Origin: Rhodobacterales bacterium
GTDB taxonomy: Bacteria > Pseudomonadota > Alphaproteobacteria > Caulobacterales > Hyphomonadaceae
Direction: 5' to 3'
Length of the DNA stretch: 64,000 nt
Assembly (NCBI GenBank): GCA_014763715.1
Contig: JACXUV010000024.1
Span: 1 to 64,000, forward strand
The notes beneath the pieces are model-generated. The model was not told where the DNA came from. It made no database searches and saw only the letters and a program-made list of their open reading frames with translations. Both the position numbers and the translations under genes were made by a program. This document shows, in pieces, positions 13,797 to 62,224 of the stretch (within the stretch, counting starts at the first letter, position 1; each line of letters begins with the position of its first letter).

Positions 13797-16700
13797 ATGA
13801 GATCTATGGAAGAAGAGGGGGTCGTTGACGCAAAGGGTGACGCGTTCTGCGCGAAGCCGAGCCGTTTCATGCGGCGTTGCGCAATGACAGTATCGACAAG
13901 CGCTTTGTTGCTTGGCGTTCTGTCTCAAGGGGCCCTGGCCCAGGAGACAGCGGAAGACGACACGGCGCAGATGGAAAAAGTGCTTGTCGTTGGTTCGCAG
14001 ATCGCCGGCGCTAAAGTGTCCGGCGCGTTGCCGGTCGCAGTGGTCTCGCCCGACGAAATCCAGGCAACTGGTGCTGTGTCGGCCGAAGAACTTTTCCGGA
14101 CGATTCCTTCGGCCGGTGACATTTCGTTCAACGGTACGTATCTCGGTGGCGGCAACTCGAACGCTGCTCGCGGTGACGTTTCCACGGTCAGCCTGCGCGG
14201 TCTGGCGCAAGGTAACACGCTGGTGCTGATCAACGGTCGTCGTTCCGTGGTGCACCCGACGTCGCAGACTGACAACCAGACGCCTGTCTTCGGTTATAAC
14301 GTCAACGCCATTCCCGTTCAGGGGCTGTCTCGGGTTGAGGTGCTGAAAGACGGTGCTGCCGCATTGTACGGTTCGGACGCTGTCGCTGGTGTGGTCAACA
14401 ATGTGCTGCAGTCAGACTTCGAAGGTCTGAATGTCAGCATGCAGTATGGTCTTGCGGAAGGGACCAACCTCAAGGAATTCACCGCAGACATGCTCTACGG
14501 GACCGACTTTGCTAACGGTAAAGGGAATATCTCCCTTTATGTCGGCGGCACGACTCGCGACTCGTTGCTGCGTTCCGACCAGGATTACACGAACCTCTCA
14601 GACATGCGCCCTCTGACGGATGGAACGAACTGGGCCGGTACTGCCTGGGACAACCGTTCCACGACATCGCCATGGGGTTACTTCATTCCTGTCGATACGT
14701 CGATTGGCGCGATTTCCGCCGATGGATCGCAGTTCTCCGATGCGTCGGGCGCCTTCCACATTCAGCCATCCAGCTTCGGATGCGCGGCATCAGCTGGTGA
14801 CGACATCTGCTACGGACCGGGTTCGGTCACCTCGTCCACATATCGCGATATGCGGTATGACGAACTGGCGACGTTCGATACGCTCACCATGCTACCGTCG
14901 GTCGATCGCCTGAACATTTTCAGCTTCATCAACTATGACGTGAGTGATGATCTGCGTCTTTATGGTGAAATTGGTCTGTACAAAGCAGAAACGAATGCTG
15001 TAATCGGTGCGCCGGCCAGCCTTGGTTCCGGTCCGATTTACATCTCTGCAGATGCTTACTGGAACCCGCTGGGGGCTGTTGGCTCGGTCAACCGTATCGA
15101 CGGTCTCAGCGCTAACGTTCCGGCCGAAGGCATGGACCTGCGCATCGGGTCTTACCGCCTGGTCGATTCCGGCACTCGTGACGTCAAGGTGAAGAACGAC
15201 CAGTATCGTTTCCTCTTCGGCGCCAAGGGTGAGAAGTGGGGATGGGACTGGGATTCTGCGGTCCTCTACAACGAAGCGAAAGTCAAAGACGCGGCTGATG
15301 GTGTCGACTCCCGTCTGTTCCAGGAAGCCGTCAACCGCACGGATGCTTCCGCTTATAACCCGTTCTGTGGTGGCGACCCGGCCAGCCCCTCTGTTGGGGC
15401 TTTGGGTTGCAATTCGCAGGACACCATCGACAGCTTCATGATCACGCAGGTTCGTGAAAACAAGACGACGCTGTCGCTGGTGGACTTCAAGGTCTCCAAG
15501 CCGGATCTCTACTCGATTTGGGCGGGTGATATCGGGATCGCGGGTGGTATTGAGTTCCGTCGTGAAACCTATCACGACAACCGTGACTCTCACCAGGATG
15601 GCTCCCTGCCATACTATGACCAGATCACGGGCGATCTCGTGTCGGATTCCAGCCTGATGGGGCACAGCCCGTCGCCGGATGTTAAAGGTAGCCGGAATGT
15701 GTCTTCGGCCTACATTGAGGTCGCTGTTCCACTGGTCTCCCCGGAGATGAATATTCCGCTGGTACAGGCCCTGGATCTGCAGATTGCTGGCCGCTACGAA
15801 GACTATTCCGATGTCGGATCGGTATCCAAGCCGAAAGTCGCTGCATCCTGGGATGTGATCGACGGTCTGCGTTTCCGCGGGTCCTGGTCGGAAGGCTTCA
15901 AGGCGCCGAACCTCGAAGTGGTCAACACGCCGCTTCTGGAACGGGTGAACGGCTATCCGGACTACATCCAGTGTGAAGCGGCTCTGCGCCAGGGAACGAT
16001 CACGAGCTACAGCCAGTGTTCAACTCTCTCCGTTACCGTCGCAAGCCTGCGGTCCGGTAACACTGAACTGGAGCCGGAAGAATCGGAGAGCTCCTCCTAT
16101 GGTGTGGTCTTCGAGCCACAATTCATTCCGGAGCAGTTCGGCAAGCTTACGCTCACGGCAGATGTCTGGAGCATCGAGCAGAAGAACCCGATTGGCCTGC
16201 TGAACGACTCGGTGGCTCTATCCTACGACTACCTTCTGCGTTTGCAGGGCAGCTCCAACCCGAATGTGATCCGCCTGGATCCGACGCCGCAGCAGATCGC
16301 AGACTTTGCTGGCACCGGGCTTGAACCTGTCGGTGACGTTCTGAACGTTGTCGCCAAGTTCACCAACCTGTCGCCGCTCAAGGTCGAAGGTATCGACTAT
16401 GGTGCCTATTGGGATGTGCCGGTTGGCCCGGGTGAGCTGTCTGTCAACGTCAATGCGACCTACCTCGACACCTACTACCAGAGCCCGACGTCTGAAGCCG
16501 CTGCGCTTCTGGCTGGCCTCGATGACGGTTCGGTCAACCCGTATGTCACGGTGACCGGAGGTGGCAGCCTGATCCAGGAAGGTGGGCGTCCGGAGTGGAA
16601 ATACTCCCTCACGATGTCCTATGACTGGGATAACTGGAAGGTCGGTGCATTCTCGCAATACACCAGCCAGGTCTATGACACGAGCGTCAGCAGCTCGGCC

Positions 16701-16916
16701 TATGGTCTGTGGCCGATCGAAGATCACATGACCTGGAACTTCTATGGCCAGTACACCATGGAGAGCGATAGCTGGACCGACGGTACTTCGGTTCGTGTCG
16801 GTGTGCGTAATGCCTTTAACGAGGATCCGCCGCTTGCCGATACCTATGGCTATCTTTCCTCACTTTACCAGCCGCTGCCGCGTTACTGGTATGTGAATGT
16901 GAAGAAGTCCTTCTAA
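13797..16916 (+). CDS. TonB-dependent outer-membrane receptor
   Basis: A 1039-residue TonB-dependent receptor. After a basic leader of about 24 residues, MTVSTSALLLGVLSQGALAQ is the signal core. The TonB-box/plug region starts at MEKVLVVGSQIAG, and VEVLKDGAAALYGSDAVAGVVN is the conserved end of the plug. The rest is a 22-strand barrel; SWSEGFKAPNLEVV and a terminal aromatic (KKSF) fit the family. It imports a bulky nutrient using proton-motive force. Just downstream lie a gamma-glutamyltranspeptidase, an amidohydrolase and an acylase, so the cargo may be peptides or N-acyl compounds (inference). A hairpin follows at 16943. Confidence 0.92.
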   Translation: MRSMEEEGVVDAKGDAFCAKPSRFMRRCAMTVSTSALLLGVLSQGALAQETAEDDTAQMEKVLVVGSQIAGAKVSGALPVAVVSPDEIQATGAVSAEELFRTIPSAGDISFNGTYLGGGNSNAARGDVSTVSLRGLAQGNTLVLINGRRSVVHPTSQTDNQTPVFGYNVNAIPVQGLSRVEVLKDGAAALYGSDAVAGVVNNVLQSDFEGLNVSMQYGLAEGTNLKEFTADMLYGTDFANGKGNISLYVGGTTRDSLLRSDQDYTNLSDMRPLTDGTNWAGTAWDNRSTTSPWGYFIPVDTSIGAISADGSQFSDASGAFHIQPSSFGCAASAGDDICYGPGSVTSSTYRDMRYDELATFDTLTMLPSVDRLNIFSFINYDVSDDLRLYGEIGLYKAETNAVIGAPASLGSGPIYISADAYWNPLGAVGSVNRIDGLSANVPAEGMDLRIGSYRLVDSGTRDVKVKNDQYRFLFGAKGEKWGWDWDSAVLYNEAKVKDAADGVDSRLFQEAVNRTDASAYNPFCGGDPASPSVGALGCNSQDTIDSFMITQVRENKTTLSLVDFKVSKPDLYSIWAGDIGIAGGIEFRRETYHDNRDSHQDGSLPYYDQITGDLVSDSSLMGHSPSPDVKGSRNVSSAYIEVAVPLVSPEMNIPLVQALDLQIAGRYEDYSDVGSVSKPKVAASWDVIDGLRFRGSWSEGFKAPNLEVVNTPLLERVNGYPDYIQCEAALRQGTITSYSQCSTLSVTVASLRSGNTELEPEESESSSYGVVFEPQFIPEQFGKLTLTADVWSIEQKNPIGLLNDSVALSYDYLLRLQGSSNPNVIRLDPTPQQIADFAGTGLEPVGDVLNVVAKFTNLSPLKVEGIDYGAYWDVPVGPGELSVNVNATYLDTYYQSPTSEAAALLAGLDDGSVNPYVTVTGGGSLIQEGGRPEWKYSLTMSYDWDNWKVGAFSQYTSQVYDTSVSSSAYGLWPIEDHMTWNFYGQYTMESDSWTDGTSVRVGVRNAFNEDPPLADTYGYLSSLYQPLPRYWYVNVKKSF

Positions 16917-17101: not shown

Positions 17102-19039
17102 ATGAACAAGACACAGACTTCAAAAAGCACAGACACGAAAGAAGACGTGACCGCGCAGACAACAAGTCTGGATCGCCGGCACTTCCTGACAGCCGGCGCG
17201 CTCGTCGCCAGTGGTGTCGCAAGCGCCTGTGTGCTGCCCTCCGAGACCACTGGAAAAGTTACAGCTGCTCCAGCGCAGGAGCCTCCCAGACCACCCGATG
17301 CGCCGGAGAGTGGCGATCTGAGTGTAGCGGCTCATCGTGTCGAAACACCTGGCCCGCATGGCGTGGTCACGGCGGGGCATCCACTGGCAGCCTCTGCCGG
17401 GCTGCGCATGTTTATGCAAGGTGGTGCAGCAGGCGATGCCGCCGTTGCAACAATGGCCGTGCTGAACCTGACCGAAGCGTGGGCGTCCAGCATCGCGGGC
17501 AATGGCTTTGCAACGGTCTATGAAAAGTCCACAGGTGCTGTAAAGGCGCTGATGTTCGGCGGAGCAGCTCCGCTGGCGCTTGACCCGACGAGCGATCCGG
17601 CCGCTTTCGACTGGGGCGTAAAGGCAGCCACTACGCCGGGTGCATTCGATGGCTGGATCGAGCTTCTCCGCCGACACGGTCGTCTGTCTCTGGCTGAAGT
17701 CTTTGCGCCTGCAATTGAGCTGGCGCGCAATGGTCACCCGATTGATCCCTCGATCGCACGCATTATCGCAATCCGGGAAGAGCGCCTGCGGGAGCATCCG
17801 ACCAGCGCGGCCATATTCTTGCCGGATGGCAAAGCGCCCGCGCCGCGCCAGATCCTGCGCAATGAAAACCTGGCAAAGACTTTCGAGGCGCTCGTCGCTG
17901 AGGAGCAGGCTGTGCTGGCCGGCGGCGGAGATCGCGACAAGGCGCTCCTCGCGGCACGGGAATACTTCTATAACGGCCCCATCGCGGTAGAGCTTGACCG
18001 CTTCTTCCGTGAGGTTGGCGGATGGCTCAGAAAAGAGGACATGTCCGCCTACCAGGCAAAATGGACAACTCCCGTCCGGACTTCGTATCGCGGTTATGAC
18101 GTGTACTCCACACCGCCGACGTCGCGTGGGGGGCTCGAAGTCTGCATGCAGGCAAACCTGATCGAGCGCTTCGATGTGTCCGGCATGAAGCCAGGCAGTG
18201 CCGAACTGCTGCACCTGCAGGCCGAGGCCATCAAGCATGCCAAGGCAGATATCTACGCCTATGCTGCCGATCCGAAGTTCGCGAATGTTCCGGTCGAGGC
18301 AATGCTGTCCAAAGCTTACGCCACAGACCGGAGTGCGTTGATTGACCCGGCCCGCGCCTTGCCATTCCCCGGTGTGACGGATTTCCGACGTTACGATACG
18401 TCTGCGCCGCCTCCGCCCACCTCGGCACAGCGGACCGCAGATGATGAAGCCCGTTTCAGCGACACGACCAGCCTGACGGTTGTCGACGGGGAAGGGAACG
18501 CCATCGTCGTGACCACGACCCTTGGCGGAGGCTTCGGAACAGGTGTGGTTGCTGGAAACACCGGCTTCCTGCTGAACAATGGTATGCGGCTTGGGTCAAC
18601 GTCGCCCTATCAGGATAACGTCAATTTCGTTGCTCCTGGAAAGATCCCCATTCTGAACAACTCGCCGGTCGTTGTGATGAATGGCGCTCGCCTTTGGGCA
18701 GCCTTCGGCACGCCGGGCGGCGAGACGATCGGGCAGAGCGAATTCCAGGTCCTGATGAACCTTGTCGACTATGGCATGGGCATTCAGGAAGCCATCGAGG
18801 CGCCTCGTTTTGCGGTCAAGGCAGATCCGAATTTCTATCTGCCCGGTGCGAAATGCCTGCTTCAGCTGGAATCGCGCTTCTCGCAGGAGTGCCTCGCAGG
18901 ACTCCAGGCAATGGGGCACGTGGCAGATTATGTCGGTCCTTATGCAATTGGCAGCATTCAGGGCGTCCGGTCTTATGAGAATGGCGCGGTCATGGCCGGA
19001 GCGGACCCGCGCCGGATGGCAATGGCGGCCGGTTGGTAG
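17102..19039 (+). CDS. ggt: Gamma-glutamyltransferase, Tat-exported lipoprotein
   Basis: A 645-residue gamma-glutamyltranspeptidase, an Ntn hydrolase that cleaves gamma-glutamyl bonds such as in glutathione. SLDRRHFLTAGALVASG is a twin-arginine signal and SGVASAC offers a lipidation site, so the mature enzyme probably sits in the envelope. The precursor must self-cleave: DTTSLTVVDGEGNAIVVTTT holds the catalytic Thr that becomes the small-subunit N-terminus. GGFGTGVVAGNTGFLLNNGM and FGTPGGETI are small-subunit signatures. The family's usual TTHxSVVD is changed to TTSLTVVD, so the usual His is Ser. It is third in a run of plus-strand exported hydrolases. Confidence 0.9.
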   Translation: MNKTQTSKSTDTKEDVTAQTTSLDRRHFLTAGALVASGVASACVLPSETTGKVTAAPAQEPPRPPDAPESGDLSVAAHRVETPGPHGVVTAGHPLAASAGLRMFMQGGAAGDAAVATMAVLNLTEAWASSIAGNGFATVYEKSTGAVKALMFGGAAPLALDPTSDPAAFDWGVKAATTPGAFDGWIELLRRHGRLSLAEVFAPAIELARNGHPIDPSIARIIAIREERLREHPTSAAIFLPDGKAPAPRQILRNENLAKTFEALVAEEQAVLAGGGDRDKALLAAREYFYNGPIAVELDRFFREVGGWLRKEDMSAYQAKWTTPVRTSYRGYDVYSTPPTSRGGLEVCMQANLIERFDVSGMKPGSAELLHLQAEAIKHAKADIYAYAADPKFANVPVEAMLSKAYATDRSALIDPARALPFPGVTDFRRYDTSAPPPPTSAQRTADDEARFSDTTSLTVVDGEGNAIVVTTTLGGGFGTGVVAGNTGFLLNNGMRLGSTSPYQDNVNFVAPGKIPILNNSPVVVMNGARLWAAFGTPGGETIGQSEFQVLMNLVDYGMGIQEAIEAPRFAVKADPNFYLPGAKCLLQLESRFSQECLAGLQAMGHVADYVGPYAIGSIQGVRSYENGAVMAGADPRRMAMAAGW

Positions 19040-19103
19040 AAGTATTGAAGATTAGTGTACCCCTTAAAGGGCAGATGGAAGTGTTAGATCAGGAGCGATC
19101 CAC

Positions 19104-22058
19104 GTGAACTATAAAATGCGTTTGAAATCTGCGGGGGCATGCCTTGTGTTCACGTCCGTCCTGCTGGCCGGCTGCAACAGCCCCGGTGAGGCAACCGACA
19201 CGGCCGCCAAGGCAAACCAGCAGGCCGAAGCGGCTGAGCGTGTCCTGGTCGACGTGGTCATGACCGAGGGCACGAACATGTCGGCAGCGATGTCGCCCGA
19301 TGGTTCCACCCTTATCCTGGCGCTTCAGGGTGTTCTCTGGTCCGTCCCGGCTGAGGGCGGTGAGGCAACGGTGCTGACACCGGCGGAAATGGACTCGCAT
19401 GAGCCGTCCTGGTCTCCGGATGGTTCACTGATCACCTTCTACACCTATGCGGACAATGGCTTCACGATCTGGACGATGAAGCCGGATGGCTCGGATCTGA
19501 CGCAGCGAACCTTCGGCCCATCTGACGCCCGTTATCCGAACTTCACTCCGGATGGGAAAAGCATTCTCTATTCCGCAGATACGGAGGGTGGCTACCAGGT
19601 CTGGTCGCTCGATCTTGAAGGCGATGCCCCTGCGAAGCAGCTGACGGTTGCGGATGAAACAGGCTATGAAGTGCCGCTGACGCCTTACTTCCGCGGCTTC
19701 GGTAACGCGGTCTATCCGACGTTGTCACCGGATGGCTCGAAGCTCGCTTTCGTTGTGGACGGGCAGATGGATGCACTTGTCGTCCGCGATGTCGACGCGA
19801 CGGGAAACTTCACTGTCGCATACACCGCCGATACGCTTGGCGCGCCTGTCTGGGCACCGGATGGCAGCTCTCTCTATGTGACCGGGCTTCTGGGCAAGAA
19901 TGGCCTCGTGACGCAGGCATATGCGGATGGACCGGATGCGACGGTTCTGCTGAAAGGCGGGGATGTTTTCCCGTTCCGCCCCTCGGTTCTGGCTGACGGT
20001 TCGGTTCTCTATACCGCTGACGGCAAGGTGAAGGTTCTGGCGCCCGGCGCAGAGGCGCCGGAAAATATCGAGTTCACGGCCTCCGTCGAACTGGACCGTA
20101 CGCCATACAAGCGCCGCACCTACGATCTCACCTCCACTGAGTCCCGTCCGGCACTTGGCGTGATCGACCCGACCCTTTCGCCTGATGGCACCAAGGCTGT
20201 CTTCACCGCCGTAGGCGATCTCTGGATGTCGGACCTTGCGACCGGCGAAACGACCCAGCTGACCGATGATGCCTTCATTGACCTGTCGCCAAGCTGGTCG
20301 CCCGACGGTTCCACAATTGCCTTCGTGACGGATCGGGGTGGGAAAGCCGATATCTGGCTTATGGATGTGGCATCCGGTGAAGCCACTCAGCTGACAGACA
20401 ATCCCCGGCCTGCCAACTCGCCGATCTGGTCTCCCGATGGCACTCGTATCGCTTACCTGTCTGATGCCCTGACGACGATCTTCCTCGGTGCGACGGTCAA
20501 CATCATTGATGTGGCGACAGGTGGAGAGACCGTGATTTCGGAACCTGTGTTCGGCCCGAGCCCGCCAGCCTGGTCCAGCGATGGCGCAGCTGTTCTCGTC
20601 GTCAGCCGTCTGCCGCAGACGAACCGTTTCCGCGAAGGCTACAATGGTCTGTTCCTGATGCCTGCATCTGGTGAAGGTGAGGCAAAGTGGGTGATGCCTC
20701 AGGGCATGGACGCCTCTCTGGGGCGCCGCCAATGGAACCGTCCGGCCTGGTCGGCCGACGGCATGATCGTCTATCGCTACAAGGGTGCGCTTTACATGGC
20801 ACCACTTTCGCCGTCTGGCGACATTGGTGACGCCACGCTGGTGGCATCTGCCGGCGAAAACCCGAACTGGTCGGCGGATGGCTCAAAGCTCATCTATATC
20901 GATGGGGCGGACATCATGCTGTTCGACCGGGCGACCGGCGAAACCAGCGCGCTGGACATCAAGCCTGAATGGCACCGTGACATGCCGGAGGAGGACTATA
21001 CCATCCGTGCGGGTCACATGCTGGATGTCGCGGCAGGCAAGTATCTGGAAAATGTCGACATCGTTGTGGAAGATGGCGTCATCAAATCGATCGTGCCCGC
21101 AGGGTCAGCTGAGATCGTCGGAACGCTCATCGATGCGTCTGACCGCTATCTCATCCCGGGCCTGATCGAGAGCCATACGCACCAGTCGATCTCGCAGGGC
21201 AGGGCCCTTGGGGACATCTGGTTCAAGTACGGGATCACGACTGTTCGTGAAACGGGGGATGACCCCTATCACGCAGTTGAGCGCCGGGAGGCCGCTGATG
21301 CGGGCCGCCGTCCTGCGCCGCGGGTCTTCACGGCAGGCCCGCTGAACGAAGGCGCGCGTGTGTCGTATGGTGTTTCTGAAACAGTCGGAACAGTCGAAGA
21401 AGCGAAGGACTCCATGCGTCTTTCCACGGAGCTACAGCTCGATCTCTACAAAAGCTATGTGCGTCAGGATTACACCGTCCAGAAAACGGTGATCGAGCTT
21501 GCGCACGAATCCGGAATTCCGGTGACGGGCCACGAGCTTTATCCCGCTGTCGCCAATGGTGTTGACCAGATGGAACACTTCGGGGCCACCAGTCGGCGCG
21601 GCTACTCCCTGAAAAGCTCGCTGAACGGTGAGTCGTATCAGGATGTCATCGCGCTGGTCGCGGAATCCGGCATGTATATTACGCCCACACTGGCGCTCGT
21701 GGAACGCGGCGGTCCGGACAAGCTGGCCGCCGGGCAGGAGACCCTCCGGAACCTTCTGGCGAAAGGCGGAAAAATCGTCGCTGGCACTGACTCCCCCTTC
21801 GTGCCCTACGGTGCGTCTCTGCACACGGAACTCTCCATCTATTCCGATGCAGGGGTGCCGAATGCGACTGTTATCAAACTGGCCACCAGCCAGGCTGCTG
21901 AGGCGATCGGCGTCGGTGACCAGCTGGGCCAGATCGCGCCGGGCTATCTGGCCGACATCACGATCCTGGATGGTGACCCTCTGGCAGACATCGCGAACAC
22001 CCTGAACGTCAGCGAAGTCATGAAGAACGGTGAAATCGTCTTCACGAAGCCGGAGTAG
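19104..22058 (+). CDS. Lipoprotein: PD40 beta-propeller plus amidohydrolase
   Basis: A 984-residue two-domain lipoprotein. The signal ends in SVLLAGC (lipid Cys about residue 24). Residues about 50-640 are WD40-like/TolB-type propeller repeats; SPDGS or close variants recur many times (SPDGSLITF, SPDGSTIAFVTD, SPDGTRIAYLSD). Residues about 650-980 are an amidohydrolase: LIPGLIESHTHQ has the HxH pair, VTGHELYP another His, and IVAGTDSPFVPYG the late Asp. Such fusions occur in Bacteroidetes and Alphaproteobacteria and are thought to act on peptides or cyclic amides; the substrate is unknown. The start is GTG at 19104, with AGGAG eight bases upstream. Confidence 0.85.
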   Translation: MNYKMRLKSAGACLVFTSVLLAGCNSPGEATDTAAKANQQAEAAERVLVDVVMTEGTNMSAAMSPDGSTLILALQGVLWSVPAEGGEATVLTPAEMDSHEPSWSPDGSLITFYTYADNGFTIWTMKPDGSDLTQRTFGPSDARYPNFTPDGKSILYSADTEGGYQVWSLDLEGDAPAKQLTVADETGYEVPLTPYFRGFGNAVYPTLSPDGSKLAFVVDGQMDALVVRDVDATGNFTVAYTADTLGAPVWAPDGSSLYVTGLLGKNGLVTQAYADGPDATVLLKGGDVFPFRPSVLADGSVLYTADGKVKVLAPGAEAPENIEFTASVELDRTPYKRRTYDLTSTESRPALGVIDPTLSPDGTKAVFTAVGDLWMSDLATGETTQLTDDAFIDLSPSWSPDGSTIAFVTDRGGKADIWLMDVASGEATQLTDNPRPANSPIWSPDGTRIAYLSDALTTIFLGATVNIIDVATGGETVISEPVFGPSPPAWSSDGAAVLVVSRLPQTNRFREGYNGLFLMPASGEGEAKWVMPQGMDASLGRRQWNRPAWSADGMIVYRYKGALYMAPLSPSGDIGDATLVASAGENPNWSADGSKLIYIDGADIMLFDRATGETSALDIKPEWHRDMPEEDYTIRAGHMLDVAAGKYLENVDIVVEDGVIKSIVPAGSAEIVGTLIDASDRYLIPGLIESHTHQSISQGRALGDIWFKYGITTVRETGDDPYHAVERREAADAGRRPAPRVFTAGPLNEGARVSYGVSETVGTVEEAKDSMRLSTELQLDLYKSYVRQDYTVQKTVIELAHESGIPVTGHELYPAVANGVDQMEHFGATSRRGYSLKSSLNGESYQDVIALVAESGMYITPTLALVERGGPDKLAAGQETLRNLLAKGGKIVAGTDSPFVPYGASLHTELSIYSDAGVPNATVIKLATSQAAEAIGVGDQLGQIAPGYLADITILDGDPLADIANTLNVSEVMKNGEIVFTKPE

Positions 22059-22064
22059 GAAACC

Positions 22065-22096
22065 GGGGCTGGTGCCGGCAATCAGGCATCGGCCCC
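22065..22096 (+). terminator. Hairpin between propeller-amidohydrolase and acylase genes
   Basis: GGGGCTGGTGCC (22065-22076) pairs with GGCATCGGCCCC (22085-22096), 12 bp with two G-U pairs and an 8-base loop, followed only by ATTT. It is a likely attenuator or partial terminator rather than a full stop. Confidence 0.5.
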
Positions 22097-22143
22097 ATTT
22101 CCAGAGTGCACTCTCGTCTCTGTGACTGGAAAAGGAAAATGTC

Positions 22144-24312
22144 ATGAAGCTCGGACACCTGATTTCCGGTGCTCTCATTGCGGCCAGCGGACTGGCCGTG
22201 TCGGCCTGCGCGGGTGCTGTGTCCGGCCCGGATACGGCAGAGCCTGTTGCTGTCGCGGCAGAACTGGTTGCGGAGGCGCCGGCCCCAAAGGGCGAGATCC
22301 TGTGGGACACCTATGGCGTGCCGCACATCTACGGCGCTGACGCAGAGACGGTTTTCTACGGATACGGCTACGCGCAGGCGTCCAGCCACGCCAATACGAT
22401 CTTCCGACTGTATGGCGAAGCCAGGGGCAAGGGCGCCGAGTATTGGGGCGCGGCCTATGAGGACACGACCAAATGGCTTGTCATGAACGGCGTGCCGGAG
22501 CGGGCGCAGATCTGGTACGATGCTCAGCAGCCTGATTTTCGCGCGAAACTCGATGCCTTCGCGGCCGGGATGAATGCCTTCGCGGAAGAACACCCGGGAG
22601 CCATCGACGAAGACCTGAAGCAGGTACTGCCTGTCACCGGCGTGGATGTCGTCGCGCATGCGCACCGCCTGATGAATTTCGTCTATGTCGCGTCTCCGGG
22701 ACGTACGGTTGGGGAGGGCGATCCGCCGGAACTGGAGAAGCAAGGCTCCAACACATGGGCCGTTGCGCCATCCAAAACGGCCGATGGGCACACGCTCCTG
22801 CTGCAGAACCCGCACCTGCCATGGAGCATGCCGTTCTTCATCTATTACGAAGCCCACCTCGTTGCCCCGGACTTTGAGGTCTATGGTGCAACCCAGGTCG
22901 GCCTGCCGGTTATCCGCTTTGCTTTCAATCAGCAGATGGGCATTTCGAACACGGTCAACGGTATGGTCGGTTCAACGACCTATGAACTGACCCCGAAAGA
23001 CAATGGTTATCTGTTCGATGGCGAGGTTCTGCCCTTCGACGTGAAGGAGACCAGCTACAAGCTGTTGCAGGCGGATGGCACGTATCTCGATGTGCCCGTC
23101 TCCATCCGGTCGACCGTGCACGGGCCTGTCTTTGAGCGTCCGGATGGCAAACTGGTGGCGCTGCGTGTCGCCGGGCTGAACCGACCCGGCATGCTGCAGC
23201 AATATTTCGATATGGTCACCTCGAAGAGCTATGAGGATTTCCACGCGGCGATGACCCGTCTTCAGGTGCCGACCTTCAACATTTCCTATGCGGATCGCGA
23301 CGGTCACATTGAGTACATCTTCAATGGCATCGCACCAAAGCGCGCCTCCGGGGATATCGACTTCTGGAGGGGGCTGGTGCCGGGGGATACGTCCGAATAC
23401 CTGTGGACCGATGTGCATCCGTTTGAGGATCTGCCGCACGTGACAGATCCGGAATCCGGCTTCATCCAGAACTCGAACGATCCGCCATGGGAAGCCACGC
23501 TTCCGGTCACCTACAAGCCTGAAGACTATCCGGCCTATTTCGCTCCGCGCACGCCGCTATCGATGCGCGCGCAGAATTCGCTGAAAATGATGGTCGACGC
23601 AAAGGACCTGACGTTTGACGAATTCATCAAATTGAAAGTCTCCGCGCAGGCCCTGATGGCAGACCGCGTTCTGCCGAACCTTCTCGCCGCTGCGGCTGAG
23701 GATTCTGATCCGGACATGCAGAAGGCGGTTGAGGTGCTGTCCAACTGGGACCGGACCTTCTCAGCTGACAATCGCGGCGGTGTCCTGTTCGAGGAATGGG
23801 CCAAGCTGTTCGCCGGGCCGCGCATGTCCGGCCTCGATGGCTTTGCCGTTCCGTGGAGCGCGGATGACCCGATCAACACGCCGTCTGGTCTGAAAGATCC
23901 GCAGGCCGCCGTCGAGCAGCTGCGGCAGGCAATCGCGAAGACAAAGGAGACCTACGGCCAGATCGACCCGGTCTATGGCGATGTCTCGCGCTTCATCCTT
24001 GACGGTGTCGATGTGCCGGGCAGTGGCGGCTATGGCAATCTGGGCGCATTCCGCGTGATCACCTGGTCGGAACCAAACGAGGATGGCATCCGCACGCCGG
24101 CACATGGAGAGACATGGGTGGCGATGGTTGAGTTTTCGACCCCGATCAAGGCCTATGGCCTGATGAGCTATGGCAACTCGCGCCAGCCCGGTACCACGCA
24201 CTACAGCGATCAGCTGGACCTCTTGTCGAAAGAACAGTTCCGCGAATTCTGGCTGCAGCGCGAACAGGTCGAAGCAAACCTCGAACGGCGTACACCGCTG
24301 AACCCGCAGTAA
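22144..24312 (+). CDS. Penicillin acylase family lipoprotein
   Basis: A 722-residue Ntn hydrolase of the penicillin acylase/AHL acylase family. The signal is hydrophobic and ends in VSAC (lipid Cys22). [13 protein letters not shown] is the start of the alpha chain. [15 protein letters not shown] marks the self-cleavage site, with Ser202 as N-terminal nucleophile of the beta chain; [18 protein letters not shown] follows as in the family. Members cleave N-acyl amides: penicillins, acyl-homoserine lactones, acyl amino acids. Envelope placement next to a TonB receptor and GGT suggests nutrient scavenging or quorum quenching. The true substrate cannot be read from sequence. Confidence 0.88.
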
Positions 24313-24386: not shown

Positions 24387-25919
24387 TTACATATCCTTCG
24401 TGCGCATCTCGATATCGGTCGTGACAGGTGAGTCCGCGCGGCCGGAGTCCTCGACGACGCGGAATTCGGCGCTGCAATTGTCTTTGGAAAAAGTTGTCCG
24501 CAGGTAGCCGCGCTTGTTGCCATTCAGGTAGGAGACGTGCGGATTGGCGTCGCGCACGATTTCCATATCGCGTGCCCACGGGCAGTAGGAAGAGATCGAG
24601 CTGCCGACCAGTTCGTGCCCGATCCGGCGGGAGTTCGGATCGAACTGGTCTTCGTGCAGCGTTGAGGCCATCGCCGTGTGCCAGTCACCCGTGAGGAAGA
24701 TGGGGTTCGAGACCCCATCTGCCAGCGTGGCGGACAAACGGTCTCGTGCGGACGGGTACCCATCCCAGCTATCAAGATTGGTTTCCGCTGCTTCTGGTGC
24801 TTCGGTGTAGCGATACGATGTGAACCAGACCTGCGTCGCAATCACATTGAACGGGGCAGACGATGTCTTCAGAGACCGGGTCAGCCAGGCTTCCTGTTCG
24901 GCGCCCATGATGGTGCGCTTCGGATCGAGGGCCTCTTCGCAATAGGGTTTGCGGTTATCGCCGCACGGCTGGTCGTCACGGAACTGGCGGGTATCCAGCA
25001 GGTGGATCAGCGCAGGGCCCAGATGATATTTGCCATACAGCTGCAGCGTGGCCTTCATCTTGTTGAAGGCCGGCGGTGCCTCGATCGGCATGTGCTCGTA
25101 GTAGGCCTTGAAGGCTGCATATTTGCGGATCTCGAATTCCAGAGGTGTCTGCTTTTCCGGGTCCTGCGGAGTGCCTGCAGCCCAGTTATTGTCGACTTCG
25201 TGATCGTCCATGGCGACGATCCATGGCGCGATGGCATGGGCTGCCTGCAGGTGCGGGTCGGCACGGTAGAGCGCGTAGCGGTTCCGGTAATCCCACAGTG
25301 TGACGATCTCATTGCTGTTGTGCTGGCGCACGATTTCGAACATGCGCCGTTCGCCGCCGCCCACGTCGCGCATTTTTGCGCCAAACGCCGAGATGCCGCC
25401 CTCATAGATATAGTCGCCGGTATGGATCACACAGTCCGGCACCCAACTGGCCAGGTCGCGATAGGCGGCATAGTGGCCGGTCTCATAGTGCTGGCAATAG
25501 GCGAGGGCGACCTTTGCTTCCGGCGCGTTCGGGTCTGTCGTGCGTGTACGGCCGACCGGGCTTTCCTCGTCGCCATAATAGAACTGGTAGAAATATTCCC
25601 GGCCAGGCTTCAGGCCGGTGAGCTTGTAGTGGATGGAGTGGGCATCTGCATCAGAGGTGCGCACAATCTCGTCGCGGATCGGATTGCGCATTGCATCATC
25701 CGTACACACGCGTACGCGGACGTCTGCCGTACCGGGCGGCATGCCGCCGCCATTCAGCGGATCGGGCGCCAGGCGCGTCCACAGGATGACGCTGGAAGGT
25801 GTAGGGCTACCGGAGGCGACCCCAAGTGTGAAGTGCGCTTTGCCGCCTTCGGCATAGGCCATTTTCGGCACCCATAACGCAGCACCGGTGGAAGCGAGAA
25901 ACAAGCGGCGGGAAAACAT
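24387..25919 (-). CDS. phoD: PhoD-like alkaline phosphatase/phosphodiesterase, Tat-exported
   Basis: A 510-residue PhoD-family enzyme. MFSRRLFLASTGAALW is a Tat signal, as expected for a metal enzyme folded before export. The N-terminal beta domain (LGVASGSPTPSSVILWTRLAP) is typical. The catalytic domain shows CVIHTGDYIYEGG, VAMDDHEVDNNWAAG and LTGDWHTAMAS, which supply the metal-binding Asp, His and Asn. PhoD enzymes hydrolyse phosphate mono- and diesters in the periplasm, using Ca2+ and Fe3+. It lies downstream of a TonB receptor on the same strand, across a 120-bp gap with a hairpin, so the pair may serve uptake and cleavage of one phosphorus compound. Confidence 0.93.
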   Translation of the reverse strand: MFSRRLFLASTGAALWVPKMAYAEGGKAHFTLGVASGSPTPSSVILWTRLAPDPLNGGGMPPGTADVRVRVCTDDAMRNPIRDEIVRTSDADAHSIHYKLTGLKPGREYFYQFYYGDEESPVGRTRTTDPNAPEAKVALAYCQHYETGHYAAYRDLASWVPDCVIHTGDYIYEGGISAFGAKMRDVGGGERRMFEIVRQHNSNEIVTLWDYRNRYALYRADPHLQAAHAIAPWIVAMDDHEVDNNWAAGTPQDPEKQTPLEFEIRKYAAFKAYYEHMPIEAPPAFNKMKATLQLYGKYHLGPALIHLLDTRQFRDDQPCGDNRKPYCEEALDPKRTIMGAEQEAWLTRSLKTSSAPFNVIATQVWFTSYRYTEAPEAAETNLDSWDGYPSARDRLSATLADGVSNPIFLTGDWHTAMASTLHEDQFDPNSRRIGHELVGSSISSYCPWARDMEIVRDANPHVSYLNGNKRGYLRTTFSKDNCSAEFRVVEDSGRADSPVTTDIEMRTKDM

Positions 25920-56899: not shown

Positions 56900-57577
56900 A
56901 TGCCCAGAGTCCTGAACGAAATGGCATCTGAAAATTCCCGCTGTACGGGTCTGCTTTGTGAAGCGCAGCCACTGCCTGTAGATGCGACTGACCTTGGCCG
57001 CTGGGACGCTCAAGTTCTGATCCTGGCGAGTGACGAGGGGCGGGCGGCCTGTATTGCGGCTGGGGTCGCTCACAAGTCTTGCCGGATAGAAATCACAGGT
57101 CAGTCAGAGTGGCGGCCTGACCAACTGAAACTGGTCGGCGCCAGTGCGATTATTCTCGCATCTCCGGTACTGGATTTGGAATTACTGTCGGAACTTCTGA
57201 TGGTGCGTCGCTTCAGGTCGGTGCCAATCCTCGTATTTGTCGACCGGAGTTCACGTCAAGTCATGATCGAAGCATTGAGGCTGGGAGTCAGTGCCTTCAT
57301 CGTCAATGGGCTGGAGCCGGAGAGAATCCCGGCGATTCTCCAAGTGGCGGAGGAGCGTCATGCTTTGACCATGGCTTTGAAGGACCAGTTGCAGAAATCT
57401 CGGGAAGAGCTGGCGGCACGTAAGACAATTGAGCGGGCAAAAGGCTTGCTTATGATGAAGAGTGGGCTGTCTGAACAGGAAGTCTACGATTCCATGCGCC
57501 GCATGGCGATGACTCAGGGAAAGCCGATGCGGGAAGTCGCGGATGCTGTTCTGGCAGTATTCTCCATTTTTCCATGA
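56900..57577 (+). CDS. ANTAR-domain (NasT-like) RNA-binding antiterminator
   Basis: A 225-residue regulator. Residues about 35-145 form a receiver-like domain that has lost its acidic pocket (VLILASDEG, AIILASPVLDLELL, FIVNGLEPERI), as in NasT/AmiR, so it is probably not controlled by phosphorylation. A coiled helix (HALTMALKDQLQKSREELAA) leads to the ANTAR domain (about 165-222): ARKTIERAKGLLMMKSGLSE, then YDSMRRMAMTQGKPMREVAD. ANTAR domains bind two tandem hexaloop hairpins and block terminators. A matching leader lies just downstream, before a TonB receptor. NasT partners with NasS; no NasS is seen here. Confidence 0.92.
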   Translation: MPRVLNEMASENSRCTGLLCEAQPLPVDATDLGRWDAQVLILASDEGRAACIAAGVAHKSCRIEITGQSEWRPDQLKLVGASAIILASPVLDLELLSELLMVRRFRSVPILVFVDRSSRQVMIEALRLGVSAFIVNGLEPERIPAILQVAEERHALTMALKDQLQKSREELAARKTIERAKGLLMMKSGLSEQEVYDSMRRMAMTQGKPMREVADAVLAVFSIFP

Positions 57578-57741
57578 AACTTCAGTATTTTTGGAGCTTT
57601 GTCTGAGCAGTCAGAGTGCTGAGACTTTGGGCGTTGTTGGTGTGCAGTGCACAAAACCGCGACGTGAAAACAATTCCGCTGCATCGCCAACATGTTTGGA
57701 TTTGGCATTTAGACGTGGCCGGAGACAGCTTGATACACAAG

Positions 57742-57788
57742 TCAGCAGGCACAGAATACCAATGCTGGTGTTTTGAGCAGCCTGCTGA
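57742..57788 (+). promoter_or_regulatory. Candidate ANTAR hairpin P1, hexaloop AATGCT
   Basis: An outer 9-bp perfect stem (TCAGCAGGC 57742-57750 with GCCTGCTGA 57780-57788) encloses an inner 9-bp stem (CAGAATACC 57752-57760 with GGTGTTTTG 57767-57775, two G-U pairs) capped by the hexaloop AATGCT (57761-57766). Loop positions 1 and 4 are A and G, the ANTAR target rule. The two stems are split only by a 1x4 internal loop. Confidence 0.7.
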
Positions 57789-57795
57789 TGGATGT

Positions 57796-57811
57796 GGCTC
57801 AACGGCGGGCC
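57796..57811 (+). promoter_or_regulatory. Candidate ANTAR hairpin P2, hexaloop AACGGC
   Basis: GGCTC (57796-57800) pairs with GGGCC (57807-57811), one G-U, around the hexaloop AACGGC (57801-57806), again with A at position 1 and G at position 4. It starts 7 nt after P1. Its 3' arm overlaps the 5' arm of the terminator-like hairpin, so the two cannot form together. Confidence 0.65.
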
Positions 57812-57849
57812 CAATCAACACTTCAGGATATCAGTGCCTTGGGCGTTTT
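57809..57849 (+). terminator. Candidate conditional terminator in receptor leader
   Basis: GCCCAA (57809-57814) pairs with TTGGGC (57839-57844), with an inner CACT/AGTG stem (57819-57822 with 57833-57836), followed by GTTTT. It shares 57809-57811 with hairpin P2. The T run is short (four), so efficiency is uncertain. Confidence 0.5.
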
Positions 57850-57939
57850 GCTCAATGGGGGAAGCTGGTGTGTGCTCGGCAACAGGGGGCAGACGGGGCC
57901 TTAGAGAGTGAAGGTTTCGCTGCGGAAAGGGAAATAAAA

Positions 57940-60651
57940 GTGCGATTTAGTTCTTATTTGAAGTGCGCTGTTTCATCAGTGGTCGTGGGTATGGTAGTTA
58001 CCGGGGGGGTAGCCTATGCAGAGCCCGATGACGAGCCGGTGGCAGATGAGACATCTGTTCAGGAAAAGGTGATCATCACCGGTATGCGCGGTAAAGCGCG
58101 GTCGGTTATGGATTCGCCCGTTCCGGTCGATGTGCTCAGCGATGATGAAATCACGGATGTACCGTTCACGGATGCCAACGATATCATCAAGACACTGGTT
58201 CCGTCTTACTCGCTGGCTCGCCAGCCGATTTCTGACGGTGGTACGTTCATTCGCCCGGCAACGCTGCGTGGCATGCCGACCGACAAAACGCTCGTTCTGG
58301 TCAACTCCAAGCGCCGTCACCGCGCCGCTCTGGTTCAGATCGGTGGTTCGGGTACGCAAGGTCCGGATATCGCGACCATTCCGGCCATTGCTCTGAAGAG
58401 CGTTGAAGTCTTGCGCGATGGCGCTGCGGCTCAGTACGGTTCTGACGCTATCGCTGGTGTGATCAACTTTATCCTCAAGGACTCACCGGAAGGTGGTTCG
58501 GTCAGTGCCGATTTTGGTCAGTACTATGAAGGAGATGGCTTCAACACCACGCTGGCCGGCAACTTTGGCCTGGGTCTTGGAGACAATGGCTTCGTAAACG
58601 TTTCAGCCGAGTACTCTAAAGCGGACATGACTGTTCGCGGTGAGCAGTATTGTGAAAGCTGGGCCTGTCTGGATGTAAACAGCCCGGATTTCAATCCAGG
58701 TAGCAGAGCAACATCAATCGCCGGCTATGATCCCGATGCCTTTATCGCGGGTCTTGCCAATGCCGACTATGTCGGTTCCGGTGTGGTGCAACCTTGGGGG
58801 CAGCCGAACTCCAAAGCCTTCCGGACTTTCGTCAATGCTGGCTATGATTTCGGAGCCTTCGAAGTCTATGGCTTCGGCAACTACTCGAACTCCGAAGCAG
58901 ATGGCAGCTTCTTCTATCGTTATCCGGGCAACGGTACGATTGAGAACATTCGCCTGGAAGACGGCTCGCTTTGGTCATCGCTTTACCTCTTCCCAGGTGG
59001 CTTTGCTCCGCGCTTTTTCGGTAACGTGATCGATTACTCCGCTGTCGGTGGTATCCGTGGTGAGTGGAGTAATGGAATTGCTTATGATTTCAGCGGCCGT
59101 TTTGGGCATGATGAAATCAAGTACACGCTGAAGAACACGGTGAACCCATCACTGGGCGATGCATCCCCAATCAGCTTCCACCCGGGAGACCTGATCAACG
59201 AAGAGGCTCAGCTGCAGGCAGATTTCTCGAAAGAGTTTGAAGTTGGTCTGTCCAGCCCGCTGCTCTTCGCCTTTGGTGCCAGCTATATGGATGAATCCTA
59301 TGAGCTGGTTGGCGGTAATTACGAGTCCTACGTTGATGGACCGTATGCGCTTCCGGATCCGTGGGATTTCTGTACCGATGCTTACACTCCGACGGCGGCT
59401 GGCGCAGCTGTTATCGCTAATGGTTCCTCACTAAACTGCGCCAACTACACGACAGCCGATTCAAATAATGATGGCATTGAAGACGACGGATTTGCCGGCC
59501 GTGATGCTGTCTATCAGGCCCTTGGCGTCGGTTCGAACGGCTTCCCGGGTTACTCGCCGGAATTCTCCGGTGAATACACGCGTGACTCCTATGCGATCTA
59601 TGGGGATCTGAGTGCAGACGTAACGGACTCCCTGTTCCTGCAAGGCGCTCTGCGTTTCGAAGACTATTCTGACTTCGACTCAGAACTCGTCTGGAAAGTG
59701 GCTGGTCGTTATGAGTTTACGCCGAACTTTGCCGTTCGCGGTTCCGTCGGTACGGGCTTCCGTGCTCCGACGCCAGGCCAGCAGGGGACGACGAACGTTT
59801 CTACACGTCTGCCAAATGGCTTCCCGGTCGCAACGGGTCTGTTCCCGGCAGGTGGTCCTATCGCAGGTGCTCTGGGTGCGACTCCGCTCAAGCCTGAGAA
59901 GTCGACCAACTACACGCTGGGCTTCACATCGACGTATGATGCCTTCTCACTGACAGTCGATTTCTACCAGATCGACCTTGAGGATCGTGTTAACGCAATT
60001 TCGACCAAGGATGTGTCCAGTGATCCTGCTAATGACGATCCGAATGATACCGAGGATGCCTATGACAATTACCTGAAGCTGGTGAATGCAGGCGTGGTTG
60101 GTGCTGAATCCATCGGTGGTGTGTTCTACTTCACCAATGCATTTGATACCAGCACCAAGGGCGTTGACGTCGTCGCGACGTACTCCAAGGAGTGGGCAAA
60201 TGGCTCTTCGACGAAGTTCACTGGTTCTGTGAACTACAACAAGACCGAGTTCGACAGTGCCGTTGGTGGCCTGTTTAACGCCGAGGACCAGTACGACTTC
60301 GTCAACTACGATCCGAAGTGGCGCGGCGTCTTTACAGTCTCGCACGAAGTCGGCCCGTATAACTTCCTCGCTCGCGCCAACTATTATGGCGAATCTACGA
60401 ACTCCGATACTGGCGGCCCCAACGGCACGCTTCGTTACCAGGATTATGGTGCGAAGGTTCAGGTTGACCTCGAAGGTTCCTTCCAGGCTTCGGAAGCTGT
60501 GAAGATCTCCATCGGTGCGCGTAACGCCTTCGATCAATATCCGGATGAGAAGGCTCTGGGGGATAACTGCTGCGGTCGTATCTATCGTTCTGGCGATATC
60601 ATCGACTGGCAGGGCGGCTACTACTACGTGAAGCTGCTTGCAGAATTCTAA
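57940..60651 (+). CDS. TonB-dependent outer-membrane receptor (ANTAR-linked)
   Basis: A 903-residue TonB-dependent receptor. From the GTG at 57940 it reads MRFSSYLKCAVSSVVVGMVV, a signal ending near AYAEP; AAAGGGA is about 8 bases upstream. The frame is open back to 57616, but that part is the structured leader. The plug has EKVIITGMRGKARSVMDSPV, LRGMPTDKTLVLVNSKRRH and VEVLRDGAAAQYGSDAIAGVIN; the barrel includes VGTGFRAPTPGQQG and ends YVKLLAEF. Control by an ANTAR protein suggests a nitrogen-containing cargo, which fits the exported amino-acid enzymes around it. A terminator hairpin follows. Confidence 0.92.
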   Translation: MRFSSYLKCAVSSVVVGMVVTGGVAYAEPDDEPVADETSVQEKVIITGMRGKARSVMDSPVPVDVLSDDEITDVPFTDANDIIKTLVPSYSLARQPISDGGTFIRPATLRGMPTDKTLVLVNSKRRHRAALVQIGGSGTQGPDIATIPAIALKSVEVLRDGAAAQYGSDAIAGVINFILKDSPEGGSVSADFGQYYEGDGFNTTLAGNFGLGLGDNGFVNVSAEYSKADMTVRGEQYCESWACLDVNSPDFNPGSRATSIAGYDPDAFIAGLANADYVGSGVVQPWGQPNSKAFRTFVNAGYDFGAFEVYGFGNYSNSEADGSFFYRYPGNGTIENIRLEDGSLWSSLYLFPGGFAPRFFGNVIDYSAVGGIRGEWSNGIAYDFSGRFGHDEIKYTLKNTVNPSLGDASPISFHPGDLINEEAQLQADFSKEFEVGLSSPLLFAFGASYMDESYELVGGNYESYVDGPYALPDPWDFCTDAYTPTAAGAAVIANGSSLNCANYTTADSNNDGIEDDGFAGRDAVYQALGVGSNGFPGYSPEFSGEYTRDSYAIYGDLSADVTDSLFLQGALRFEDYSDFDSELVWKVAGRYEFTPNFAVRGSVGTGFRAPTPGQQGTTNVSTRLPNGFPVATGLFPAGGPIAGALGATPLKPEKSTNYTLGFTSTYDAFSLTVDFYQIDLEDRVNAISTKDVSSDPANDDPNDTEDAYDNYLKLVNAGVVGAESIGGVFYFTNAFDTSTKGVDVVATYSKEWANGSSTKFTGSVNYNKTEFDSAVGGLFNAEDQYDFVNYDPKWRGVFTVSHEVGPYNFLARANYYGESTNSDTGGPNGTLRYQDYGAKVQVDLEGSFQASEAVKISIGARNAFDQYPDEKALGDNCCGRIYRSGDIIDWQGGYYYVKLLAEF

Positions 60652-61054: not shown

Positions 61055-62224
61055 ATGGCTTACGATATTTCCAGACGCTTTCTTCTAGCTGGTGCAACCG
61101 GTCTCGGCGTTGCGGGGGCGACCGCCTGCGCATCGGGCGCATCGGCAATCGCTGAAACGACCGAAGCGGCTTTCCCGCCAGAGAAGGTTGCCGTTGAGAA
61201 TCCCTACCTTCTTGGTCCGCCGGAAGGCGTCGCGCTGCTGTCGCGTAACGAAAACCCGTATGGTCCGGCTCCGTCAGCTCTGAAAATGATCGAATACGCC
61301 GGTTCCAAGGGCGCATACTATGCCTCGCAGGATGCTGTGCAGCTGCTGAAGACAATGATCGCCGAGAAAAACGGCGTAGCACCTGAGCAGATCGCCCTGA
61401 CCACCGGTTCGGGTGAAGCCCTGTCCGCTATCGCCATGATCTATGGTCCGAACGGACCGATCGTCGCGCCGCGCCTGTTCTGGGACACGACGGCCCTCTA
61501 CGCGGCTCGTCTCGGTATGGCTACTATCGACCGTGTGCCGCTGAAGGCCGATATGAGCACCGATCTGGAAGGCATCGAAGCGAAGGTCACGACCGAAACC
61601 GGGCTCGTCCAACTCTGCAACCCGAACAACCCGACGGGGCTTGTTGCAGATGCTGTCACGATGAAAGCCGCCGTGACCCGCATGGCGTCCAAGACGATAG
61701 TTCTGGTCGACGAGGCTTACATGGAACTGGCCGACGATCCGGACGGCAACACCTGCATCGGCCTGATCAAGGACAATCCGAACGTGATTGTGTCACGGAC
61801 CTTCTCGAAGATCTACGGTATGGCTGGCATCCGCATGGGTTACACGATTTCCTCGCCGGAAGTGGCGCAGAAGATCCAGGCGACGGCCATGTCCTGGTCG
61901 CCGTGCACGTCCTACGCAGCGGCTATCGGCTCCTACAATGACGAGCAATTCCTTGCTTTCTCCAAGGCGAAAGTCAAAGAAGCGCGTGAAATGATCACGA
62001 CCACGCTCGATACTCTGGGCCTTGAGTACCTGCCGTCGCAGACGAATTTCGTCTTCTTCAAGTCCGGAAAGCCGGCGAACGATATCCAGAAAGCATTTGC
62101 CGAGCAGAAAATTTCTGTCCGCGGACAATATATGGATTATGTCGATTGGACCCGTGTTTCCACTGGCAAAATCGAAGACGTCGAACGTTTCTGCAAAGCG
62201 CTGCCGGCGATCGTCGGCGCGTAA
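61055..62224 (+). CDS. Exported HisC-like PLP aminotransferase
   Basis: A 389-residue class I/II aminotransferase closest to the histidinol-phosphate aminotransferase group (LLSRNENPYGPAPSAL). MAYDISRRFLLAGATGLGV is a Tat signal and ATACASG a possible lipidation site, so the enzyme is predicted to be exported folded with its cofactor. PLP residues are intact: Asn in LCNPNNPTG, Asp and Tyr in VLVDEAYMEL, Lys in SRTFSKIYGMAGIRMGY. Export argues against a role in histidine synthesis; transamination or racemisation of envelope amino acids is more likely. ATG 61055 has only weak ribosome-site support (AGGAT). Confidence 0.88.
   Translation: MAYDISRRFLLAGATGLGVAGATACASGASAIAETTEAAFPPEKVAVENPYLLGPPEGVALLSRNENPYGPAPSALKMIEYAGSKGAYYASQDAVQLLKTMIAEKNGVAPEQIALTTGSGEALSAIAMIYGPNGPIVAPRLFWDTTALYAARLGMATIDRVPLKADMSTDLEGIEAKVTTETGLVQLCNPNNPTGLVADAVTMKAAVTRMASKTIVLVDEAYMELADDPDGNTCIGLIKDNPNVIVSRTFSKIYGMAGIRMGYTISSPEVAQKIQATAMSWSPCTSYAAAIGSYNDEQFLAFSKAKVKEAREMITTTLDTLGLEYLPSQTNFVFFKSGKPANDIQKAFAEQKISVRGQYMDYVDWTRVSTGKIEDVERFCKALPAIVGA

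Follow-up and report, generated by a model that had tools for sequence, protein, structure and literature searches.

Introduction

The closest described relatives of the system reported here are EutV of Enterococcus faecalis, AmiR of Pseudomonas aeruginosa and the NasT-NasS pairs of Paracoccus and Bradyrhizobium. Switches in which a protein recognises paired RNA hairpins in this way are familiar mainly from genes of nitrogen metabolism. In EutV (PDB 6wsh and 6ww6) phosphorylation of a receiver aspartate activates the protein, which then prevents a U-run terminator, and the target leaders carry two hexaloops with A at position 1 and G at position 4 (PMC8934654 and PMC3369931). PMC3369931 also gives a linker of 5–12 nt for the E. 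faecalis eut leaders and reports many dual-hexaloop matches without a terminator. AmiR (PDB 1qo0) has a pseudo-receiver unable to accept phosphate, according to PMC8934654, and NasT combines a receiver-like domain with an ANTAR domain and acts on a leader RNA (PMC3795266 and PMC6759348).

Here we analyse an ANTAR gene followed by a gene for a TonB-dependent receptor in a 64-kb stretch of DNA from a marine bacterium, called the window throughout. A preliminary description had proposed that the ANTAR protein switches on this receptor by antitermination; our results support the ANTAR-type leader, whereas the intrinsic terminator on which antitermination would depend is weakly supported.

Results

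A dual-hairpin leader lies between an ANTAR gene and a receptor gene

The leader at 57742-57811 sits between the ANTAR gene and the gene for the receptor, TBDR1, in the following arrangement:

56900-57577, + strand: ANTAR protein gene, 225 aa, the proposed regulator (PF03861)
57742-57788, + strand: P1, a two-part hairpin with hexaloop AATGCT at 57761-57766 (direct reading; RNAalifold of 9 leaders)
57742-57750 and 57780-57788, + strand: outer stem of P1, TCAGCAGGC and GCCTGCTGA (direct reading)
57754-57760 and 57767-57773, + strand: inner stem of P1 (direct reading)
57789-57795, + strand: linker of 7 nt between P1 and P2 (direct reading)
57796-57811, + strand: P2, a 5-bp hairpin with loop AACGGC at 57801-57806 (direct reading; RNAalifold of 9 leaders)
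57796-57800 and 57807-57811, + strand: arms of P2, GGCTC and GGGCC (direct reading)
57889-57923, + strand: hairpin directly 5′ of the ribosome-binding site, its shape kept (RNAalifold of 9 leaders)
57940-60651, + strand: TBDR1, TonB-dependent receptor with a GTG start (PF00593 and PF07715, matched in the longer frame 57616-60651)
61055-62224, + strand: aminotransferase gene after TBDR1 (PF00155)

Direct reading placed both hairpins with their loops, the linker and the terminator-like pairing where the preliminary description had put them, and its AxxGxx pattern was found in both loops (AATGCT and AACGGC), each with A at position 1 and G at position 4. The fold of 57735-57855 was better than that of shuffled sequences (z = −2.5; 1 of 200 shuffles as good). 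When model R2, which has the window leader among its training sequences, was run on the window's own genome, it scored 57741-57811 at 92.8 bits and the next best site at 16 bits (150 of 702 candidates scored). Rfam returned no match in the window at the gathering threshold and three snoRNA matches with E > 1. A search of the genome for other DNA resembling the TBDR1 leader found none (the next match had E = 0.03 and covered 23 bases), and no sigma-54 site was seen by eye. The receptor frame extends far upstream in some relatives; conservation of the leader as upstream-extended receptor coding was rejected because in L004 the frame begins just 36 nt upstream of the start. Relatives of the aminotransferase are found near ANTAR-TBDR pairs in other Hyphomonadaceae (neighbour cluster c2, 8 of 11 loci), and in five loci (L033, L034, L036, L037 and L051) an extra protein, TauE/SafE in L034, lies between receptor and aminotransferase.

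Tandem hexaloops recur, and their stems covary, in relatives

The hexaloops were sought in 27 ANTAR-TBDR leaders of Hyphomonadaceae, which remained after those identical over the first 300 nt had been dropped. Tandem AxxGxx hexaloops on stems of at least 5 bp were present in 16 of them, compared with 0.04 expected from dinucleotide shuffles. When stems of 4 bp and three loops deviating by one base were admitted (GATGAT in P1 of L015, GATGTT in P2 of L017, and AACAGC in P1 of L010, which is without G4), tandem hexaloops were found in 24 of 27 leaders, 10 from the window clade and 14 others. Across the 48 loops of these leaders, A1 occurred in 46, G4 in 47 and both in 45. The three remaining leaders had a single hexaloop (L011) or two spaced 73 and 69 nt apart, outside the short-linker range (L016 and L032). 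The linker measured 7–11 nt across 12 short-linker leaders, with the 7 nt of the window at the lower end. In six leaders (L012, L013, L033, L034, L036 and L037) three successive AxxGxx hexaloops were seen instead of two.

Compensatory changes in P1 and P2, which had been named as a check on the structure, were strong outside the window clade and weak within it. In the 14 non-clade leaders 96.2% of cells were paired and 7 of 10 pairs were double-changed (24 cells); 0 of 500 shuffles matched either the paired percentage or the covariation score, and pairing fell to 25–43% when the partner was slid. The measure 'further pair types' gave no excess in these 14 leaders. Within the window clade, represented by 8 distinct rows, pairing reached 93.1% of cells and 3 pairs, all in the inner stem of P1, had changed on both sides, little above shuffles. 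Since the covariation score was equalled in 53 of 500 shuffles, the structure could not be proved from the window clade by itself.

Receptor-linked ANTAR proteins form a group that keeps RNA-contact residues

The upstream gene had been said to encode an ANTAR domain, and it does so clearly (62.5 bits against a curated PF03861 cut-off of 27.3), in the sole PF03861 match of the genome. The protein consists of a degenerate receiver-like domain, a long helix and a C-terminal ANTAR domain. Its predicted fold has the same order, receiver-like domain, long helix and ANTAR bundle (mean pLDDT 79; residues 1–34 below 50), and the best matches among solved structures were AmiR and EutV.

Searches for ANTAR proteins covered 61 genomes (the window's own and 60 relatives), 105 genomes of the family and a named GTDB set. 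Among the best 80 of 565 relatives in the last of these, the named ones were Hyphomonas and other Hyphomonadaceae, with Hyphomonas jannaschiana VP2 at 68%. The fetched loci fell into two main classes, in which the gene after ANTAR encodes either a TBDR1-homologous receptor or a NasS-like protein, with a few having neither. In a midpoint-rooted tree of 103 ANTAR proteins, which represent part of the known family (27 TBDR-linked, 70 NasS-linked and 6 other), a branch with support 100/98 set the 27 TBDR-linked proteins apart from all others, the NasS-linked proteins included. All 27 come from Hyphomonadaceae or the window's family. In none of the TBDR-type loci did the fetched downstream flank contain a NasS match, and no sensor or ligand for the ANTAR protein was found.

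Eleven RNA contacts of EutV, as named in PMC8934654, were mapped by alignment, allowing for a shift of 2 residues between the chain index and the numbering of the paper. Seven of them (R142, K143, K149, E160, Y164, R168 and M172) correspond to R174, K175, K181, E192, Y196, R200 and M204, which are identical in 27 of 27 TBDR-type rows. R179, opposite EutV K147, is Arg in 25 rows and Lys in 2, a conservative difference, and EutV N173, R175 and R177 have different residues (T205, G207 and P209) opposite them. The receiver domain shows a different pattern: position 87 is Ala in the window, and Asp is found there in 0 of 27 TBDR-type rows compared with 20 of 40 NasS-linked rows, while the first-strand Asp is present in 39 of 40 NasS-linked rows and 2 of 27 TBDR-type rows (NasS-linked counts are from the first 40 of 72 rows). 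Because the receiver Asp is gone in the TBDR-type rows, activation of the TBDR-linked ANTAR proteins by phosphorylation appears unlikely.

The ANTAR gene and TBDR1 occur in the same genomes

TBDR1 orthologues, accepted at E values up to 1e-150 from no more than 21 scored candidates in each genome, were found in 20 of 42 Hyphomonas genomes, and a TBDR-type ANTAR was found in the same 20. Neither was found in the other 22. Weak protein matches in G021 and G030 (E = 9e-4 and 6e-4; 24–26% identity; frames > 500 aa) were set aside, and the 42 genomes are related, not independent. Within the clade, TBDR1 orthologues share 86–91% identity and their ANTAR regulators 62–70%.

The conservation of the hexaloops, the covariation outside the clade, the strict co-occurrence and the kept RNA-contact residues support reading of the leader by the ANTAR protein. 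On these comparisons of sequences, the interpretation of the TBDR1 leader as ANTAR-responsive is well supported, and the product of the ANTAR gene immediately upstream probably recognises its dual hexaloop.

A second dual hexaloop precedes another receptor gene

We also scanned the window with R1, a covariance model built from the 14 non-clade leaders only and therefore without the window in its training. The top-ranking match, at 13606-13644 (21.0 bits; E = 0.0045), lies about 150 nt upstream of a second receptor gene, TBDR2; the TBDR1 leader came second (15.7 bits; E = 0.074; P1 bridged), and the next match scored 9.9 bits. The regulon is probably wider than the preliminary description proposed. 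The features of this region are:

7495-9687 and 9891-13362: genes directly before TBDR2, for an amino-acid kinase, a P5C reductase, a sodium:solute symporter and an Xaa-Pro-dipeptidase-like amidohydrolase, the last scoring below that family's cut-off
13605-13644, + strand: dual hexaloop of the TBDR2 leader, TTACCC-AATGGC-GGGTAA, 6 nt, GGATC-AACGAT-GATCC (model R1)
13797-16916, + strand: TBDR2, second TonB-dependent receptor and proposed trans target (PF00593, PF07715)
17102-24312, + strand: genes behind TBDR2, for a gamma-glutamyltranspeptidase (PF01019), a PD40-amidohydrolase (PF07676/PF01979) and a member of the penicillin-amidase family (PF01804)

Orthologues of TBDR2 (81–85% identity) were present in 8 further genomes, and all 9 genomes bear the ANTAR gene. 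The tandem hexaloop was found in 7 of the 9 orthologues, window included, with one hexaloop each in L167 and L168, and in 0 of 21 TBDR2 paralogues (≤48% identity). R1 scored the seven TBDR2 leaders at 20.7–30.1 bits; it also gave 24.2 bits to a site within a receptor gene (L175), a false match that looks like chance. In the TBDR2 stems 3 pairs were double-changed, which was equalled by 2 of 500 shuffles. TBDR2 and the ANTAR gene share a contig in 8 of 9 genomes, about 30–55 kb apart from start to start, and are on different contigs in G005. A leader duplicated along with its receptor was rejected as the origin, TBDR1 and TBDR2 aligning over about 200 residues at 33% and then in short pieces, and the TBDR2 leader was not found in phage records.

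The genome has 34 Plug-domain matches, of which 30 were fetched and 29 had a leader to scan, the upstream sequence of L196 being only 84 nt. Among these 29 leaders a tandem was found only at TBDR1, at TBDR2 and, as a weak pair, in L214, with none in L219. Over the 30 loci R1 again gave 21.0 bits to TBDR2 and 15.7 bits to TBDR1, and it gave 16.8 bits to L212 on the strand opposite its receptor. A genome-wide R1 scan, in which 150 of 1467 candidates were scored, missed the TBDR2 site and returned nine matches besides the TBDR1 leader; seven overlap long open frames, two (L151 and L154) lie outside the printed frames, and no receptor gene was evident behind any of the nine. The motif occurs in 7 of 9 TBDR2 orthologues and 0 of 21 paralogues; the single ANTAR protein of this genome is therefore likely to act in trans on a small regulon of receptors.

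The genes preceding TBDR2 suggest proline or peptide use, and its neighbourhood as a whole would fit uptake of nitrogen-rich, peptide-like compounds. A third Plug-domain protein of the window (L213; 26039-28723) adjoins a PhoD-like phosphatase (24387-25919) on the minus strand, and a scan upstream of it gave no tandem hexaloop.

Three further sequence elements were noted in these leaders. A dyad such as TGCANC-N5-TGTGCG/A was seen by eye about 75–115 nt 5′ of the first hexaloop in many TBDR1 and TBDR2 leaders (57639-57657, 13510-13537, L014-L020 and L122), being weak in the TBDR1 leader of the window. It is reminiscent of the NtrC box, and would fit nitrogen control. The stretch TGCTCGRCAACAGGGGGCAG (57873-57892) is invariant bar one base in 9 TBDR1 leaders, and GGCAGGGGG occurs in 6 of 7 TBDR2 leaders (13728-13760), where the window has GGTTGAGGGG; both stretches may perhaps be a site for a small RNA or a protein.

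Alternative pairings downstream of P2

The preliminary description had drawn a terminator-like hairpin with TTTT that shares 57809-57811 with P2. In the window GCCCAA (57809-57814) is able to pair with TTGGGC (57839-57844), followed by GTTTT. The elements of this region are:

57796-57806, + strand: strand A of the proposed switch, the 5′ side and loop of P2
57836-57844, + strand: strand B (GCCTTGGGC), with strand A, the 3′ side of P2 and strand C as possible partners
57845-57849, + strand: GTTTT, the U-run of the terminator drawn earlier, absent from the 9 other clade leaders
57850-57858, + strand: strand C (GCTCAATGG), the 3′ arm of hairpin T and a look-alike of strand A

All 6 pairs of the terminator stem are possible in 5 of 10 clade leaders (window, L006, L008, L009 and L110), with 5 pairs in L010 and 4 in the remaining four. 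The hairpin is thus present in the window, but GTTTT follows the stem there only, in 1 of 10 clade leaders. Terminator scoring across leaders detected no U-run hairpin that overlaps P2 and is conserved. In some leaders of other clades (e.g., L017 and L020) P2 is followed by hairpins with short U-runs, and inspection of the TBDR2 alignment revealed no U-run terminator.

The predicted folds depend on the fragment. The fold of 57735-57855 has the terminator stem and no P2, while the best fold of 57788-57858, which reaches the end of the next hairpin, has P2 and no terminator. RNAalifold of 9 leaders gave P1, P2, hairpin T (57837-57858) and the hairpin before the ribosome-binding site. Among minimum-energy folds of the P2-T fragment in 10 leaders, B pairs with C in 9 and P2 forms, with no protein considered, in 6, whereas the A:B helix and the terminator pairing drawn earlier appear in 0 of 10. 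With the U-run in 1 of 10 leaders and the pairing in 0 of 10 best folds, a U-run terminator was not upheld as a conserved off state; the intrinsic terminator has weak support, being possible in the window strain and unsupported as a conserved feature.

The A:B duplex has an energy of −14.2 kcal/mol in 9 of 10 clade leaders and −9.8 in L010, and strand C is the best match to A among the leader 10-mers in 9 of 10 (rank 15 in L010). These energies and the likeness of A and C suggest a choice among strands in the TBDR1 leader. The A:B pairs barely vary, so that such a switch is without covariation support, and by eye the choice was not seen in most TBDR2 leaders. The A:B and terminator helices could matter only during transcription or with P2 kept open.

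Discussion

Starting from the computed motif, its conservation, the co-occurrence, the residue conservation and the second target, we infer that a NasT-like ANTAR protein, having neither an adjacent NasS partner nor a phosphorylatable receiver, would bind the tandem hexaloop hairpins while the leaders of two TonB-receptor operons are being transcribed, in cis at the adjacent TBDR1 and in trans at TBDR2, about 43 kb away. A signal would free or activate the protein, and receptor expression would presumably be raised. In the TBDR1 leader, bound protein would keep P2 closed and so bar strand A from strand B, leaving B to pair with C in hairpin T; when no protein is bound, the growing transcript may form A:B. 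The alternative helices are directly followed by GTTTT in the window strain, where they might act as terminators; the other clade leaders are without this U-run. We consider this account, with its ANTAR protein, two receptor leaders and A/B/C switch, the best explanation and a likely one. The narrower proposal that a NasS-free ANTAR clade runs a TonB-receptor regulon, in cis and in trans, through a new type of expression platform, with P2 and a look-alike further downstream competing for a single shared strand and without a classical intrinsic terminator, is doubtful.

Control by the leader might run through antitermination, through Rho or through translation. One alternative is that ANTAR binding acts on translation or RNA stability by way of the conserved hairpins that separate P2 from the start codon, which is somewhat unlikely. 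Hairpin T and the hairpin before the ribosome-binding site are conserved, a conserved U-run is missing, and ANTAR-target RNAs acting on translation are reported in actinobacteria (PMC8164766); yet neither P2 nor its alternatives were seen to pair with the ribosome-binding site, and P2 ends about 130 nt 5′ of the start codon, unlike motifs that overlap a start site. Canonical antitermination, in which the 3′ arm of P2 and TTGGGC would form an intrinsic terminator with its U-run that ANTAR binding prevents, is less probable again and in our view unlikely. It is the mode of the characterised ANTAR systems (PMC8934654 and PMC3369931), the fragment of the window ending at 57855 folds in this way with GTTTT behind GCCCAA/TTGGGC, the full stem is possible in half of the clade leaders, and short U-runs follow P2 in leaders such as L017 and L020. 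However, 9 of 10 clade leaders are without the U-run, inspection of the TBDR2 alignment shows no U-run terminator either, and the pairing is lost from all ten best folds once hairpin T is included.

The two explanations that dispense with the ANTAR protein fare worse. That the hairpins are functional but bound by another factor, with the adjacent ANTAR gene incidental, is very unlikely: some conservation of the leader may serve DNA-binding factors upstream of P1, but this would leave aside the strict ANTAR-TBDR1 co-occurrence in 42 genomes, the kept RNA-contact residues, A1 and G4 in 46 and 47 of 48 loops, and the confinement of TBDR2 orthologues to ANTAR-bearing genomes (9 of 9). Chance hairpins within a conserved region are extremely improbable given 16 observed tandems against 0.04 expected from shuffles and a covariation matched by 0 of 500, even though short motifs are common and R1 yields false matches.

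The RNA motif and the protein fold found here are already known, whereas the target class is new and the downstream RNA unusual. Uptake through such receptors is the first, costly step in nutrient capture, and its known control involves sigma/anti-sigma pairs, Fur-like repressors, riboswitches and small RNAs. If the ANTAR-based account is true, ANTAR control extends to the outer membrane, in a system with one regulator and two targets that is testable in culturable Hyphomonas. It would also offer a natural example of a NasT-like protein that lacks its nitrate sensor, in which what drives such a protein can be asked directly. The preliminary description was aware of no such arrangement for a TonB receptor, and we likewise found no ANTAR control of one in titles and abstract openings of the open-licence literature; the supplementary hit tables of PMC3369931 might list one.

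Compared with the described systems, the nearest protein relatives of the window ANTAR in the tree are those of the NasT-NasS systems (PMC3795266, PMC6759348), with which it shares the receiver-like domain, the ANTAR domain and the leader RNA as target. Unlike NasT-NasS, the window locus is without an adjacent NasS and the targets are outer-membrane receptors, and unlike the NasS-linked rows (Asp in 20 of 40) all 27 TBDR-type rows lack Asp at the receiver position aligned. EutV (PMC8934654, PMC3369931) has the dual A1/G4 hexaloop and the linker range in common with the window, and 7 of its 11 named RNA contacts in common with the TBDR-linked ANTAR proteins; neither its activation by receiver phosphorylation nor its U-run terminator is conserved in the TBDR-linked system. 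AmiR, the best fold match, likewise has a pseudo-receiver, but no AmiC-like partner was recognised by eye among the listed neighbours of the window ANTAR and the target genes differ. The actinobacterial ANTAR-target RNAs (PMC8164766), although from a different phylum, are likewise found with transport genes and beyond the nitrate and ethanolamine operons.
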